Virus record (IMG/VR): IMGVR_UViG_3300035162_004655
Span: 1-64,000 of that record
DNA: 64,000 nt
Origin: a virus
Strand: one strand, 5' to 3'
The notes under the pieces are model-generated. The model did not search any database. It was not told the DNA's origin and was given only the letters and a program-made list of their open reading frames with translations. Below, piece after piece: positions 20,989 through 25,880 of this stretch. Position 1 is the stretch's first letter; each line of letters opens with the position of its first letter. Made by a program: the position numbers and the translations under genes.

Positions 20989-21233
20989 GTTATGTCCCAA
21001 AGGTCAATGATTATGTAATATGGAATCATCATGGTATTATACATGAAGGATGGATATACTTTGTTGATAGTGCCTATATTACGATTGAGACGGCAGTAAG
21101 ACCTAAACCTAATTGTGAGTATACCAGAGAAGAGAAACATAAGTATATACATACTTTGCTTTGTTGTTATCCTCATCAGTGGAAAGATCTTACCTATGTA
21201 AAAAGTCGGAAGAGCATCTATGAATCATTATAA
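20985..21233 (+). CDS. conserved cyanophage protein, 82 aa
   Basis: Has the pattern YVPKVNDYVIWN...EGWIYFVDSAYITIET...KPN, which I recall from many cyanomyoviruses. Probably a small SH3-like beta barrel. Overlaps the oxygenase start by 14 bases. Function unknown. Confidence 0.75.
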   Translation: MSYVPKVNDYVIWNHHGIIHEGWIYFVDSAYITIETAVRPKPNCEYTREEKHKYIHTLLCCYPHQWKDLTYVKSRKSIYESL

Positions 21234-21864
21234 AAAAGTATTATTTCCTATACATATTTTTCAGACAAATATACGTGAAAATGTGTTGATTTTAGATGAT
21301 GCATTAGATAAAATTGAATATCTTTATAAAAGAAAAAATTTAAATGTTCCTGGTGGATGGTTGACAGATAATCTTTTTACCACATTTGAATCTGGCGAAA
21401 TAAATTCATCTTTATTTCATAAAGATAGTGTATTTGTCAAGTATTATCGTGAGTATGTAACGAAGTTTTTTGATAAACCAGTTGAATTTGAATTTGATGA
21501 TATTTGGTTAAATGTCTACTCAAAAGGTGAATTTCAGGAGCAACACTCACATTTATCTCCCAGCATTTTTATGAAAAGGACACATTTTTCTTGTATTCAT
21601 TATTTGAAATTTGATCCAGAGGTTCATAAATCTGTAGTATTTGTTGATCCGTTAGATGAAATGAGATATAATACATTAGAGATGGATTCAAATTATTATA
21701 GAGATAGATGGTCGCCACAGATTCGTGAGGGTGATTTATTAATGTTCCCATCATATTTGGAACATTTTGTGAATAAATCTGATCCAACACCAGATAATCC
21801 AAGAATATCGATATCATTTAATATTTGGATAAAACAATACGGAGAACAAACACATGAAGATTAA
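21220..21864 (+). CDS. 2OG-Fe(II) oxygenase-like protein (first of three)
   Basis: 214 aa. Candidate iron ligands are H109 and H111 in EFQEQHSHLSPS and H182 in FPSYLEHFVN. R195 in NPRISISFNIWI would bind the 2-oxoglutarate carboxylate. The arrangement fits the TIGR02466/2OG-FeII_Oxy_5 type of putative oxygenase found in T4-like phages. The substrate is unknown. It overlaps the second oxygenase by 11 bases, so the two are co-translated. Confidence 0.82.
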   Translation: MNHYKKVLFPIHIFQTNIRENVLILDDALDKIEYLYKRKNLNVPGGWLTDNLFTTFESGEINSSLFHKDSVFVKYYREYVTKFFDKPVEFEFDDIWLNVYSKGEFQEQHSHLSPSIFMKRTHFSCIHYLKFDPEVHKSVVFVDPLDEMRYNTLEMDSNYYRDRWSPQIREGDLLMFPSYLEHFVNKSDPTPDNPRISISFNIWIKQYGEQTHED

Positions 21865-22336
21865 TTTTGATGATAATTTTTTAGAAAAGAGAGAGTTTGA
21901 GATTGTTCGCAATTATTGTTTAGATGCATCATATTATTATGGTGAGAGTGATAATGGTGATGGTATTGTGACTGGAATGATACATAACATACCAGAAACA
22001 GAATTTGTATATAAGTTATTTCGTAAGAAGTTAATGGATAAGTGTCCATTTCTTTCAGACATGAAATTATATCGGATTTATATAAATTGTTTTGCTCCGA
22101 ATGAAAATCCATATTTTCATACTGATGGAGAGGGATTAACATTTTTACATTATGTGAATAGTGAATGGAATTTGCAAGAGGGAGGAGAAACACAGTTTTG
22201 TGTGGACGATAACATTTATGGTATTGTTCCGATGCCAAATCGATTGGTGATGTTTGATGGTAAGATATTACATCGTGCGACATCATTTCGGAATAATCAT
22301 AGGTTCACGGTTGCAATTAAGTATTCACCACAATAA
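21854..22336 (+). CDS. 2OG-Fe(II) oxygenase (second of three)
   Basis: 160 aa. The HxD motif is H89-T-D91 (PYFHTDGEG), the distal His is H140 (KILHRATSF) and R150 lies in HRFTVAIKY. These match prolyl-4-hydroxylase-like 2OG-Fe(II) oxygenases. It is followed by a late promoter and a glycine-rich adhesin gene. Hydroxylation of a fibre protein is a reasonable but untested idea. Confidence 0.87.
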   Translation: MKINFDDNFLEKREFEIVRNYCLDASYYYGESDNGDGIVTGMIHNIPETEFVYKLFRKKLMDKCPFLSDMKLYRIYINCFAPNENPYFHTDGEGLTFLHYVNSEWNLQEGGETQFCVDDNIYGIVPMPNRLVMFDGKILHRATSFRNNHRFTVAIKYSPQ

Positions 22337-22339
22337 ATA
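22333..22339 (+). promoter_or_regulatory. late promoter before the adhesin gene
   Basis: ATAAATA overlaps the oxygenase stop codon and lies 23 bases before the ATG at 22363. Confidence 0.65.
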
Positions 22340-22362
22340 TAAAAAAGTAGTTTACCATATCC

Positions 22363-23526
22363 ATGGCAGTCAATATTAGTAAAGTTGAAAAACTTACAGG
22401 TTCTTCGGGTCCTATATCTTTTTCTCAAATTAAAGATGAGTTTGGAGGAAATACTACAAATATCCGTGCCTCACTTTATAGAAGAAATGATGGTGATAAT
22501 GTAGATTGGGACGGTCCTAATGCATCAAAAATTGAACCAAAAATTCCTGATGCAACAGAAAATCAAGACATTGGTTCCAAAAATAATTGGAATGTGAGTG
22601 CATTAAGAAATACTGTCATGGAGTATAATGTCACTCAGAGTGGAAGTAATGAGGAACTGGTATATTTTGATAGTGATACATCAACATGGAATGGAAATTT
22701 AAATCGTAATGTTTTAAAGAAATTTGATGTAACAGGAACTATCTTTGCAAATCAAATTAATAAAGATGCACTTACATTTGGAGGTGATTTATATAATTTA
22801 GAAATTGAGGTTGATGGGACCGGAAAAATTTATGGTGAGGGAGGTAGTATTGGATCTGGAGCAGGAGGAGATGCACTGTATGTAAACAATACCAGAACAA
22901 ATTCACCTGTTGAGATTTATTCCTACGGACAAATTTATGCTGGAGGTGGTGGAGGTGCTTCTGGAAATCCCGGAAATAGTGGTTCAAGTTTAAGTTGTAG
23001 TAGTACCAGTTATTATAATGCGAACAATCCATTTAGGAGTGGAACCAATTTAAGTGATGCAAGACCTGGGCAAACATGTCGTAGAGCAAGAAGTGGAGGA
23101 AGATGGGTGAGTGCAAATCAAAGTGGTATAAGAAATCGTTGTCGTGGAGGTGGAACAAGAAGAGGTAGTGGTGATTATCCGGGAGGTAATTATCAGTGTT
23201 CTTCATCTTGGAATGTTCTTTGTGTACGAACCAACAGTTATAATTTAGGTGGAGGTAATGGAGGAAATGGCGGTAGTGGAGGACGTGGCAGAGGATTCAG
23301 TTATCAGAGTGGAAGTTTGTCAGGAAATTCTGGAAACAGTGGAAACTCAAATAGTTGTAGTGGAGGTACTTCAACAGGAAACCGTGGAAATTCTGGAACG
23401 AGTGGTGGAGATTGGGGACAATCTGGAGGAAGTGGTGCTTCTGCAGGAATTGCAATTCAAAAGAAGAATGCCGTGATGAAAAGTTATACAAGCAATACTG
23501 TAAAGGGTAGGATTGTTGATATATAA
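22363..23526 (+). CDS. glycine-rich tail adhesin / fibre-tip protein
   Basis: 387 aa. The N-terminus (MAVNISKVEKLTGSSGPISF) is of the type seen in T4-like cyanophage structural proteins. Residues about 170-370 are glycine-rich runs (GGGGGASGNPGNSG, GGGNGGNGGSGGRGRG, GNSGNSGNS) with several Cys and Arg, like the polyglycine lattices of T-even gp38-type receptor-binding tips. It ends in a short hydrophobic-basic tail. Probable role: receptor recognition. It lies among oxygenase and zinc-ribbon genes. Confidence 0.78.
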   Translation: MAVNISKVEKLTGSSGPISFSQIKDEFGGNTTNIRASLYRRNDGDNVDWDGPNASKIEPKIPDATENQDIGSKNNWNVSALRNTVMEYNVTQSGSNEELVYFDSDTSTWNGNLNRNVLKKFDVTGTIFANQINKDALTFGGDLYNLEIEVDGTGKIYGEGGSIGSGAGGDALYVNNTRTNSPVEIYSYGQIYAGGGGGASGNPGNSGSSLSCSSTSYYNANNPFRSGTNLSDARPGQTCRRARSGGRWVSANQSGIRNRCRGGGTRRGSGDYPGGNYQCSSSWNVLCVRTNSYNLGGGNGGNGGSGGRGRGFSYQSGSLSGNSGNSGNSNSCSGGTSTGNRGNSGTSGGDWGQSGGSGASAGIAIQKKNAVMKSYTSNTVKGRIVDI

Positions 23527-23545
23527 TGTGCAATGAGATTTTACT

Positions 23546-23875
23546 ATGTTAGATGATTTAGTATTTAAATTTATGGATGAATTTTTCTTAAAAGAGAGAG
23601 AAATATTCTTTGATGCATCTAAGAACTGTCAAAAAGAACGATGGAGTATTTGTCAGGCATGTGAACACTTTGATGAACCGGAGGAAGGATGTAAAGAATG
23701 TGGATGTTATTTACCTCATAAGATAAAAGATCAGTGGGGTGATTGTCCATTAGATAAGTGGATATCAAATGATGAAGAATGGAAGAGTAAGTATTATAAT
23801 GAATTAAAAGATGTTATAATAGAGAAGTATCCAGAGTATCAAGAACTAATTGAAAAACATGAACGAATCAATTGA
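23546..23875 (+). CDS. six-Cys zinc-ribbon-like protein, copy 1
   Basis: 109 aa. Residues about 35-75 hold C-x2-C, C-x2-C-G-C and a final CP-x2-KW (CQACEHF, CKECGCYLPHK, GDCPLDKW). This is a compact metal-binding module with a paralogue at 24460-24738. N- and C-terminal parts are helical. Possibly a chaperone or cofactor for its tail or oxygenase neighbours. It overlaps the third oxygenase. Confidence 0.75.
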   Translation: MLDDLVFKFMDEFFLKEREIFFDASKNCQKERWSICQACEHFDEPEEGCKECGCYLPHKIKDQWGDCPLDKWISNDEEWKSKYYNELKDVIIEKYPEYQELIEKHERIN

Positions 23876-24476
23876 ATTAAAGGGAAGATATTCTGATTTC
23901 ATTGGAGAATACTCATGTGTATATTCTACGGAGTATTGTAATGAGATTATAAGGGGTTTTGATTATTATCAGGATATTAATGCAGTCTATTGTGAGGATA
24001 ATCAATTTCCGAATAGTAATGCCGGTAGGTTTGATTGGGCATTAGATTTATATGATATGGGTCCAAGTTTAGATGGACCTGTATCTAAACAAATGAATGA
24101 AGTATTGTTTGAATGTTTAGAAGAGTATACACAAGTCTTTGGTCATTTAAAAACAGTACCATTTTATTCACTGGCACAAAAGATACAGAAGACTCCTGCC
24201 GGTGGTGGTTATCATGTCTGGCACGATGAGAATAGTAGTATACAAGAAGCACGAAGAGCTCTTGTATGGATGGTATATTTAAATGATGATTATGAAGGAG
24301 GAGAAACAGAGTATTTGTATTATAAGAAAAGAATACAACCAGAGAGAGGTAAGTTACTTATATGGCCTGCAGGTATGACACATTGCCATAGAGGAGGATT
24401 GGTATTGAAAGGTAATAAGTATGTTGCAACAGGATGGTTCTATCTGGGAGGAATGGATTATGCAAGAGAAGAATAA
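23859..24476 (+). CDS. 2OG-Fe(II) oxygenase, prolyl-4-hydroxylase-like (third of three)
   Basis: 205 aa. The core GGGYHVWHDEN gives an H122-D-E124 ligand pair (HxE rather than HxD), followed by MVYLNDDYEGGETEY, LIWPAGMTHCHRG (distal His near 175) and a C-terminal strand. This is a typical phage P4H-like oxygenase layout. Start 23859 is preferred over an in-frame TTG at 23850. It overlaps both zinc-ribbon genes, so all three are translationally linked. Confidence 0.87.
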   Translation: MNESIELKGRYSDFIGEYSCVYSTEYCNEIIRGFDYYQDINAVYCEDNQFPNSNAGRFDWALDLYDMGPSLDGPVSKQMNEVLFECLEEYTQVFGHLKTVPFYSLAQKIQKTPAGGGYHVWHDENSSIQEARRALVWMVYLNDDYEGGETEYLYYKKRIQPERGKLLIWPAGMTHCHRGGLVLKGNKYVATGWFYLGGMDYAREE

Positions 24477-24738
24477 AGATGAGGAATTTCCTTCTGTTAA
24501 TGAACAAGGAAAGAATCTGGCAAAGTTTACATTTGAAGTAGTAAAGAATGTAATTGATCTATCACCTAGTAATGAGACTAAGTTACTTCTATCTAAAGAA
24601 GAACAGAAGGAAAGATTGGATATATGTAAGAAGTGTGAGTATTATAGTGTAAGACAGAATAGATGTAGACAGTGTGGTTGTCATCTGTCTCATAAGGTGA
24701 AGTTTGGTGTGAGTCGGTGTCCAATAGGTAAATGGTAA
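24460..24738 (+). CDS. six-Cys zinc-ribbon-like protein, copy 2
   Basis: 92 aa, start 24460 after GGGAGGA. The C-terminal half repeats the copy 1 pattern: CKKCEYY, CRQCGCHLSHK, SRCPIGKW. The N-terminal half is helical and unrelated. The pairing of two paralogues around one oxygenase suggests a functional unit. Function unknown. Confidence 0.75.
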   Translation: MQEKNKDEEFPSVNEQGKNLAKFTFEVVKNVIDLSPSNETKLLLSKEEQKERLDICKKCEYYSVRQNRCRQCGCHLSHKVKFGVSRCPIGKW

Positions 24739-24770
24739 TCTAATAAGAGTGTATTGAAGAGTATCTATGA

Positions 24771-25808
24771 TTAAATGTAATTCCACTTGTGATCAAATGC
24801 CCATTTCCAGTATTCACCATTCATCCTATTCTTAATGTTGCGTGTTATACCTCCCACACCACTATAATCACCTTCACTCTTAATATAAAATGATGCTTCA
24901 CTTATGCTATTGAAGGTAATCGTTTCACCGGTATGAATGTTAATACCTTTTACCGGTTTCCTTCTTTTGGCTGCACTTATTGCAGATGCTTTCTTATAAT
25001 GTTCTGTACTATGCCTATTAGTGGCAAAGGTGATCTTATCATAAGAAATGATCTTACCTTTCTTATGGAACAGATACCAACCCTTACATTGTAGTTTATT
25101 CTTATGGGGACTTTTTAATGATTGAAATACACCATTATTATTCTTTTTATCTCCTGTTATGAACTCTGCACAGTCTGCCTGACTCTTCCATTCCTTATAT
25201 TCACCATTAGTATTATATCCATAGACACCAGTTCTAATTCTAATCTGCTTATCTTTCCATTCTTTTAATTTCTCACCTTTCCAAGTCCATCTATAATTAT
25301 GTGATTGAAATACATTACCTTTACAACATTGTCTAATACATTGTCTTTCATTTCCAGAAGGTTTATATCCTAATGTTTCTAATGCTGCGACACCAACAGT
25401 ATCATAGTCACAAATATAAACATCATCTAATGTATAACAACTGACGGCACGACTGTTAGGATGCTTAGACCAATACTTTGATGGTTTAGATATACCTTCT
25501 CCACCATAGGTACAGTTATATCCCGCACCATCACAGGTATTATATTCTGCAATGTAATGTTTTTCTCTTTCATTTACATTATCATCAGTACATTCTTCTA
25601 ATACTCTAAACTTAAAGTTGTTACTACCATACTTATTGATTGCTTTAATAATAGGCATTGAATGAATGGAATTGTATGCCGATGTACTCTCTTTTAATCT
25701 GGCATTATTGATGTGTTCTTTCCATCTATCATATGGATTGAGTTTAGTTGTTTTACCAATATATTGCTTACCATTCAGATTGTTTGTAATGCTGTAGATG
25801 TATGCCAT
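24771..25808 (-). CDS. GIY-YIG homing endonuclease with repeated DNA-binding motifs
   Basis: 345 aa, the only convincing minus-strand gene. The N-terminus YIYSITN...KQYIGKT with Arg28 is a GIY-YIG nuclease domain to about residue 110. The rest has repeated NUMOD1-like units of the form V-x-x-Y-x-x-x-G followed by a helix and a W/Y turn (near 125-185, 200-260 and 280-345). TATAAT on the minus strand (25815-25820) lies just upstream. Start 25808 is chosen because the GIY motif begins at residue 3. It is inserted next to the origin-like region. Confidence 0.88.
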   Translation of the reverse strand: MAYIYSITNNLNGKQYIGKTTKLNPYDRWKEHINNARLKESTSAYNSIHSMPIIKAINKYGSNNFKFRVLEECTDDNVNEREKHYIAEYNTCDGAGYNCTYGGEGISKPSKYWSKHPNSRAVSCYTLDDVYICDYDTVGVAALETLGYKPSGNERQCIRQCCKGNVFQSHNYRWTWKGEKLKEWKDKQIRIRTGVYGYNTNGEYKEWKSQADCAEFITGDKKNNNGVFQSLKSPHKNKLQCKGWYLFHKKGKIISYDKITFATNRHSTEHYKKASAISAAKRRKPVKGINIHTGETITFNSISEASFYIKSEGDYSGVGGITRNIKNRMNGEYWKWAFDHKWNYI

Positions 25809-25880
25809 TATTGAATTATAATATATTCGTGTGTTCTGTATATATGCTGATTTAAAACTATTATAGAGATTTAACAAGTC

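Follow-up and report, generated by a model that had tools for sequence, protein, structure and literature searches.

A conserved gene block around a gp38-like adhesin in a virus collinear with Synechococcus phage S-SKS1: a predicted receptor-binding-tip cassette

The gene block and its conservation

The DNA analysed here is a 64,000-nucleotide (nt) stretch (hereafter, the window; positions 1 to 64,000 of IMG/VR record IMGVR_UViG_3300035162_004655), taken from a virus record of 67.6 kb; apart from the region of the gene block considered below, this record is collinear with that of Synechococcus phage S-SKS1. This block, at 21220-24738, was originally predicted from the sequence to encode three 2-oxoglutarate (2OG)-Fe(II) oxygenases, a glycine-rich adhesin and two six-cysteine proteins, in overlapping or nearly touching genes. 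The open reading frames (ORFs) confirm this layout, and their coordinates place the two six-cysteine genes (ZnR1 and ZnR2) on either side of, and overlapping, the third oxygenase gene, OxyC (Table 1). The first two oxygenase ORFs (OxyA and OxyB) overlap by 11 nt, and OxyC starts with the ATG at 23859. The listed ZnR2 ORF starts at 24421, whereas the start conserved among aligned relatives is the ATG at 24460. No further metabolic genes were found in the block in the ORF list or with Pfam. On comparative evidence, on which the whole of the tailoring reading rests, we consider it probable that the block is a receptor-binding-tip cassette, the enzymes of which are predicted to tailor a loop of the adhesin oxidatively.

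The order OxyA-OxyB-adhesin-ZnR1-OxyC-ZnR2 recurs in L012, L285 and L286 (labels of this type, like G018, denote records or loci of relatives fetched for comparison). Its retention in L012, in L285 and in the diverged L286, the proteins of which are 46-73% identical, indicates that the order is not due to chance; the conservation as a unit in other phages envisaged in the original prediction was therefore observed. In L013, the sequence ends after the adhesin. Comparison of the window with L012 yielded ratios of nonsynonymous to synonymous substitution rates (dN/dS) of 0.15-0.27 for OxyA, OxyB and OxyC, indicating purifying selection.

Table 1. Features of the gene block and the adjoining endonuclease gene in the window.
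Feature	Length (aa)	Description	Position	Strand	Basis
OxyA	214	2OG-Fe(II) oxygenase, PF13759 / phrog_81, HxH...H...R	21220..21864	+	ORF, Pfam, PHROG, alignment
OxyB	160	2OG-Fe(II) oxygenase, PF13640 / phrog_274, HxD...H...R	21854..22336	+	ORF, Pfam, PHROG, alignment
ATAAATA		late-promoter-like motif before adhesin	22333..22339	+	motif search
Adhesin	387	candidate gp38-type receptor-binding tip	22363..23526	+	ORF, alignment, AlphaFold2 model, VIA-align
ZnR1	109	six-Cys zinc-ribbon-like, phrog_13558, DUF6171-like below cut-off	23546..23875	+	ORF, PHROG, alignment
OxyC		2OG-Fe(II) oxygenase, PF13640 / phrog_61, HxE...H; overlaps ZnR1	23859..24476	+	ORF, Pfam, PHROG, alignment
ZnR2		six-Cys zinc-ribbon-like; overlaps OxyC	24460..24738	+	ORF, PHROG, alignment
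GIY-YIG		homing endonuclease adjoining block	24771..25877	-	Pfam, PHROG

The adhesin and its zinc-ribbon companion

The adhesin consists of an N-terminal domain (N-domain; residues 1-~110) and a beta-helix/polyglycine tip (~110-387), with a Cys-rich hypervariable loop at ~208-296. An AlphaFold2 model based on 27 homologues had high confidence across most of residues 150-220 and 290-387, with a predicted local distance difference test (pLDDT) score >90 in much of 150-210 and 290-387, and was poor in the N-domain and the loop. Alignment of this model with VIA-align gave a Z score of 15.6 over 175 residues for the receptor-binding domain of PP01 gp38 (9v85) and of 15.2 over 169 residues for S16 gp38 (6f45), with a root-mean-square deviation of 3.3 and a matched region of ~86-387; the next best entry had a Z score of 6.3. 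The Foldseek match was weak (E 5e-3). Searches of Pfam retrieved no family at E 0.1, and PHROG 2056 (“tail fiber protein; host specificity”) was matched only at E 8e-4. An alignment of 29 adhesins identified conserved Gly-rich motifs surrounding the hypervariable loop, and gp38 of S16 and PP01 likewise combines this fold with Gly-rich motifs flanking hypervariable receptor-recognition loops. According to the part of the PP01 paper covered, it is the hypervariable loops of gp38 that bind the receptor (PMC12892980). The fold match makes the adhesin a candidate gp38-type receptor-binding tip, with a predicted place on the fibre and a predicted role in receptor binding. It differs from gp38 of S16 and PP01 in that its loop is long and Cys-rich, the number of Cys residues being even in most clusters of the family (60 of 68), and in that genes for a zinc ribbon and for oxidative enzymes lie next to its own; the term “disulfide” does not occur in the part of the PP01 gp38 text covered (PMC12892980).

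The annotators of the cultured Synechococcus phage S-SRM01 named the homologue in that genome “gp37-gp38 adhesin tip complex”; this adhesin has six Trp residues in its loop. The S-SRM01 locus has an adhesin of the same family (40% identity) with the same zinc ribbon directly downstream, and differs from the window in that the enzyme slot upstream is occupied by a flavin halogenase rather than by oxygenases. More generally, adhesins of this family were found in two genomic settings: downstream of a pair of large tail-fibre genes and upstream of a UvsW-like helicase gene, or in a region of small genes, as in the relatives of the window. Two variants of the adhesin were observed. In L012 (4370-7666), it is 1098 residues long, with a repeat region of ~700 residues between the N-domain and the tip; the tip, with its Arg- and Cys-containing loop, is retained, and the neighbouring enzymes are all 86-93% identical. 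In L046 (8001-9452), and also in L047, the variable loop holds an intein/Hint-like stretch, with a weak Pfam Intein_splicing match below the cut-off (E 0.034).

The six Cys residues of the zinc ribbons (CxxC, CxxCGC and CP) are invariant in all 34 sequences aligned (ZnR1, ZnR2 and 32 others). The two proteins match the phrog_13558 profile (E 5e-17 and 2e-12) and fall below the DUF6171 (PF19668) cut-off of 27 bits, with 24.3 bits for ZnR2 and 19.5 bits for ZnR1; a relative in L014 exceeds it (30.5 bits). The ZnR2 AlphaFold2 model had a pLDDT of 82. A zinc-ribbon model yielded no match in the PDB at E 0.001 and, among viral models, retrieved uncharacterised phage proteins only.

A scan of IMG/VR with the adhesin as the only query yielded 67 loci (68 with S-SRM01) in 42 clusters, 63 of which loci have sequence downstream of the adhesin. 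A zinc ribbon follows the adhesin in 59 of these 63, mostly at a distance of no more than 30 nt, and most of the adhesins so followed have no oxygenase nearby; the usual companion is of the ZnR2 form. Among 223 zinc-ribbon ORFs, from loci fetched in part by adhesin or zinc-ribbon queries, 198 have the adhesin upstream and four have an oxygenase instead. The number of Cys residues in the C-terminal part of the adhesin is even in 60 of 68 clusters with a linked zinc ribbon, and in 43 of 49 once similar loops are removed, pointing to paired Cys residues. Fewer than six Cys residues were found in four of the seven adhesins lacking a zinc ribbon, versus none of the 68 with one (Fisher p = 3e-5); the other three adhesins with no detected zinc ribbon have 13-18 Cys residues, which the idea of a Cys chaperone leaves unexplained.

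The original prediction cast the six-Cys proteins as metal-binding helpers of the oxygenases. Such a role, in metal supply or substrate presentation, would fit the zinc ribbons that overlap or abut 2OG oxygenase genes in the absence of this adhesin in S-MbCM6, S-SSM7 and Sf-FS3. We nevertheless regard service to the oxygenases rather than the adhesin as unlikely, given the pairing with adhesins in the scan, mostly without an oxygenase, the 198 versus four ORFs and the pattern of low Cys counts. This part of the prediction did not hold: the role of oxygenase metal helper was rejected as the main one, because the zinc ribbon accompanies nearly every adhesin, with or without an enzyme. Comparison of the sequences suggests that the zinc ribbon more likely serves the Cys-rich tip as a chaperone, in folding or in the handling of thiols or metal. 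Two further occurrences were recorded. In L290 (5992-6258), ZnR2 stands alone between a conserved small gene and an endonuclease gene, as though the other genes had disappeared or were still to be acquired. Six-Cys zinc ribbons of the same profile also lie in early-gene regions of Stenotrophomonas and Rhizobium phages (L007 and L008), with no adhesin or oxygenase annotated nearby.

Enzymes linked to the adhesin

All three oxygenases exceed the Pfam cut-off of 27 bits (OxyA, PF13759, 48.3; OxyB, PF13640, 28.5; OxyC, PF13640, 45.4). They were originally described as differing in ligand pattern (HxH, HxD and HxE), a distinction upheld both by their membership of three separate PHROGs (81, 274 and 61) and by the invariance of the patterns in the alignments of block relatives. 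In these alignments, OxyB has an invariant metal triad and 2OG-binding Arg (H89, D91, H140 and R150), and OxyC has invariant H119, H122, E124 and H175, with H122-E124-H175 as the triad. OxyA lacks the canonical HxD/E...H facial triad and has instead an invariant HxH...H pattern (H109, H111 and H182, with R195), consistent with PF13759 and also aligned in its nearest solved relative, 2rg4; its reaction is less certain because of this difference. Some proteins scoring as 2OG oxygenases or DUF6445 carry the labels “DNA endonuclease V” or “minor coat protein” (PHROG 274 and 1644, NC_019444, NC_008296); judging from the sequences, these names look wrong.

We investigated the linkage from the oxygenase side by counting, per 90% cluster, relatives with a same-strand adhesin no more than 3 kb away. 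OxyA relatives at least 40% identical to the window protein were linked in 24 of 28 clusters (5/5 at 65-100% identity, 10/11 at 50-65% and 9/12 at 40-50%), whereas linkage fell to 6/19 below 40%. For OxyC, 17 of 18 clusters at 50% identity or more were linked (10/11 at 65-100% and 7/7 at 50-65%), versus 0/5 below 40%. In 22 whole records, some near-identical, 8 of the 18 ORFs scored as oxygenases by Pfam were judged by reading to lie at the adhesin. From the adhesin side, the adhesin-only set contains oxygenases of the OxyA, OxyB, OxyC, JmjC_2 or DUF6445 type beside the adhesin in seven of 42 clusters, and a halogenase immediately upstream in eight, three of which also have a DUF6445 protein downstream. 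In L020, L024, L042 and L055, a JmjC_2/cupin-type protein (PF08007, phrog_4992) and DUF6445 proteins were observed beside OxyA relatives, the group lying downstream of the adhesin-zinc ribbon pair.

The S-SKS1 comparison provides a different view of the block. Window positions 21224-25873 stand in place of 1.5 kb in S-SKS1, from which the block is absent at that site; together with the GIY-YIG gene at the right end, this difference identifies the block as accessory cargo at a variable site. The endonuclease is probably an aid to mobility, outside the tip system; different GIY-YIG relatives also adjoin the zinc ribbon in L285 and L290. The adjoining endonuclease, the insertion or deletion relative to S-SKS1 and the frequency of 2OG oxygenases in cyanophages (OxyC was matched by 415 phage records) might suggest that the oxygenases are ordinary auxiliary metabolic genes carried along by the homing endonuclease and unconnected with the adhesin. 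This appears very improbable, since order and overlaps have been kept in far-diverged relatives under purifying selection and linkage is seen from the oxygenase side; OxyA and OxyC relatives lying mostly away from adhesins, as this explanation would lead one to expect, were looked for and not seen.

In sister cassettes, the enzyme slot is filled by a homologue of flavin-dependent tryptophan halogenases, a protein of relatives of the window (PF04820, 286.6 bits versus a cut-off of 21). Its G8xG10xxG13, K74, W246xW248xIP and E320/E323 are invariant in 8/8 sequences; by analogy with PrnA, we take these to be the GxGxxG and WxWxIP motifs and the catalytic Lys and Glu. It matches structure entry 5uao, which we take to be that of MibH. 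In searches led mainly by the halogenase, 72 clusters were assessed; the adhesin lies directly downstream in 28 of the 33 clusters of the top clade (profile score of at least 634), versus one of the 39 lower-scoring clusters. A PF04820 search of 22 whole records detected the adhesin-linked halogenase once in each of nine records, always at the adhesin, and one other, divergent halogenase, in G018.

Loop composition was compared for Trp because the halogenase family name predicts a Trp target. After the removal of adhesins outside 300-620 residues or with less than 600 nt of upstream sequence (78 to 70 clusters), Trp accounted for 5.3% of the loop in 25 halogenase-linked clusters and 2.1% in the 45 others (permutation p = 5e-5, the smallest attainable). 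The effect withstood correction with a tree of the adhesin N-domain, the loop being excluded (p = 8.4e-6), and no Trp effect was found outside the loop (tree-corrected p = 0.21). Among the 20 residues, Trp had the smallest tree-corrected p value, followed by Ile (0.0015) and Cys (0.0046). A first, smaller residue-enrichment set served as a lead only; it is contained in the larger set and is thus not independent. Two patterns chosen post hoc, after the loops had been viewed, were Cys-bracketed Trp (25/25 halogenase-linked versus 15/45 others) and two Trp within five residues (20/25 versus 3/45).

The original prediction also gave the adhesin a late promoter of its own. An ATAAATA motif, which we take to be a late-promoter motif as in T4-like phages, lies 30 nt before the adhesin ATG, and the motif also precedes the adhesin in L012, L285 and L286, the block relatives examined for it; the window contains 15 copies on the + strand and three on the - strand. 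Of the 25 halogenase-linked clusters, 22 have the motif between the two genes and no more than 150 nt from the start of the adhesin, versus seven of 53 adhesins without a halogenase; none of 23 halogenase starts is preceded by it (background 3.9% of random 190-nt stretches). Its presence before the adhesin and not the halogenase makes different expression levels probable for the catalyst and the structural protein; the upstream enzyme genes seem to be expressed independently of the abundant adhesin.

A candidate oxidative tailoring system at the receptor-binding tip

We propose that the gp38-type tip bears a Cys-paired hypervariable loop, with ZnR2 and ZnR1 acting as folding or assembly partners of the adhesin that would probably handle this loop. 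OxyA, OxyB and OxyC would be iron/2OG-dependent hydroxylases modifying the adhesin post-translationally, before the tip joins the fibre, and in sister cassettes the flavin-dependent halogenase would do the corresponding job on loop Trp. The enzymes would be active on the adhesin as their substrate, the modified residues would lie in the loop, and the change would alter binding or stability. The hydroxylation of the fibre tip put forward in the original prediction remains the best-supported reading of the sequences, given the gp38-like adhesin, the conserved block, the oxygenase-side linkage and the association of the halogenase with Trp; we extend it here to a family of interchangeable enzymes for oxidative tailoring, grouped about a single gp38-like tip.

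Several observations weigh against this proposal. OxyB relatives at 50% identity or more were linked to an adhesin in only 22 of 44 clusters (23/45 in a second count), made up of 4/5 at 65-100% and 18/39 at 50-65%, and the lowest band gave 0/1. One of the misses, L429, does hold an adhesin, which was overlooked owing to an overlong ORF start; L449 has a divergent Gly-rich protein at the adhesin's place. Five top-clade halogenase clusters lack the downstream adhesin, one for want of room and four lying among other structural genes with no adjacent adhesin. Halogenase presence is also clumped on the adhesin tree (8 changes versus 20.5 expected). For the oxygenases there are linkage and conservation, yet no residue-level covariation with the adhesin was found: an Arg excess in oxygenase-linked adhesins (naive p = 0.0002) was lost on phylogenetic correction (p = 0.13), and the reading of Arg as the oxygenase target was not retained. 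In an enlarged set, 73 clusters had enough sequence on either side of the adhesin, and no enzyme was detected in 35 of them (14 had a halogenase only, 10 both enzymes and 14 an oxygenase only), implying that modification would be optional. Because the queries that brought in this set were the adhesin, the halogenase, the zinc ribbon and the oxygenases, its fractions for the zinc ribbon (70/77) and the halogenase (25/77) are inflated. Adhesin-free OxyB relatives often lie beside other Gly-rich or tail-fibre genes; a Gly-rich neighbour was rejected as evidence, as 133 of the 325 ORFs of at least 250 residues in these loci are Gly-rich.

Alternatively, the oxygenases and halogenases might make a small molecule (a halogenated derivative of an amino acid or sugar, for example, or a decoration of the capsule), their position next to the adhesin reflecting no more than an insertion hot spot in the tail-fibre region. 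The portion of Iyer et al. 2021 covered reads the S-SSM6a cluster of halogenase, 2OG oxygenase and carbamoyl transferase as a secondary-metabolite or capsule system and proposes a halogenated secondary metabolite (PMC7824862). Similarly, the S-SSM7 halogenase lies among carbamoyltransferase and heptose genes, and those of S-MbCM6 and Syn1 among metabolic genes. The S-SSM6a/S-SSM7 cluster resembles the phage tip cassettes in bringing a halogenase and 2OG oxygenases together, and differs from them in its carbamoyl transferases, sugar kinases and low-scoring halogenase, and in having no adhesin beside it. The halogenases in small-molecule contexts form a different, low-scoring group (154-205 versus 634-931), whereas the adhesin-linked clade has no surrounding biosynthetic genes, adjoins the adhesin in most of its clusters and predicts loop Trp. 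The window block, too, lacks other metabolic genes, and we consider a small-molecule product quite unlikely. An antibiotic role of cyanophage halogenase-type genes is called speculative in the part of a review covered (PMC2984593).

The enzymes might instead act on another virion or host protein, such as the large tail fibre or a host surface protein, sharing with the adhesin only the timing of expression. Large fibre genes are indeed adjacent in many loci, and oxygenases recur beside other fibre genes. Neither in the window nor in its relatives does a large fibre gene adjoin the block, though, and the Trp correlation is confined to the adhesin loop, so that such a target seems distinctly improbable.

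Tailoring of the adhesin has parallels in other systems. MibH, a peptide Trp halogenase of the NAI-107 pathway, works on a peptide that has already undergone macrocyclisation and Pro hydroxylation, according to the part of the source covered (PMC12615548). This tailoring of a ribosomally synthesised and post-translationally modified peptide likewise involves a Trp halogenase and a Cys-crosslinked, hydroxylated substrate; the presumed phage substrate differs in being a loop of a structural virion protein, with no leader peptide and no lanthionine enzymes. VirX1, the flavin halogenase of cyanophage Syn10 (6qgm), belongs to the same superfamily as the adhesin-linked halogenase (E 9e-44), is distant from the adhesin-linked clade (28% identity) and is absent from the window; its natural substrate is not named in the part of a review covered (PMC8407142). 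In Syn9, the sister of Syn10 (L078, 34-42 kb), a pair of halogenases comes directly after two Gly-rich tail-fibre-assembly proteins (phrog_863) and ahead of several 2OG oxygenases in a row; this layout is a lead that such enzymes may be linked to fibres outside this adhesin family as well. In the portions of the literature covered, neither phage halogenases nor 2OG oxygenases were found to be described as acting on tail-fibre adhesins.

It seems about an even chance that the receptor-binding tips of cyanophages are built like tailored peptide natural products, with a gp38 scaffold, a hypervariable Cys-paired loop, a zinc-ribbon chaperone and, from the same cassette, exchangeable 2OG, JmjC-like and DUF6445 hydroxylases and Trp halogenases, the non-standard side chains of the loop recognising the host. 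Trp halogenases and many-copy 2OG oxygenases have long been listed as puzzling auxiliary genes of cyanophages. If the adhesin is their substrate, these genes belong to host recognition rather than metabolism, and the adhesin would be what phage halogenases and oxygenases of this clade naturally act on, pointing to enzymes that act on folded protein loops. The host-recognition loop would then be a chemically altered surface, and halogenation, hydroxylation and Cys pairing would be added to the means by which phages are known to diversify their receptor-binding proteins.

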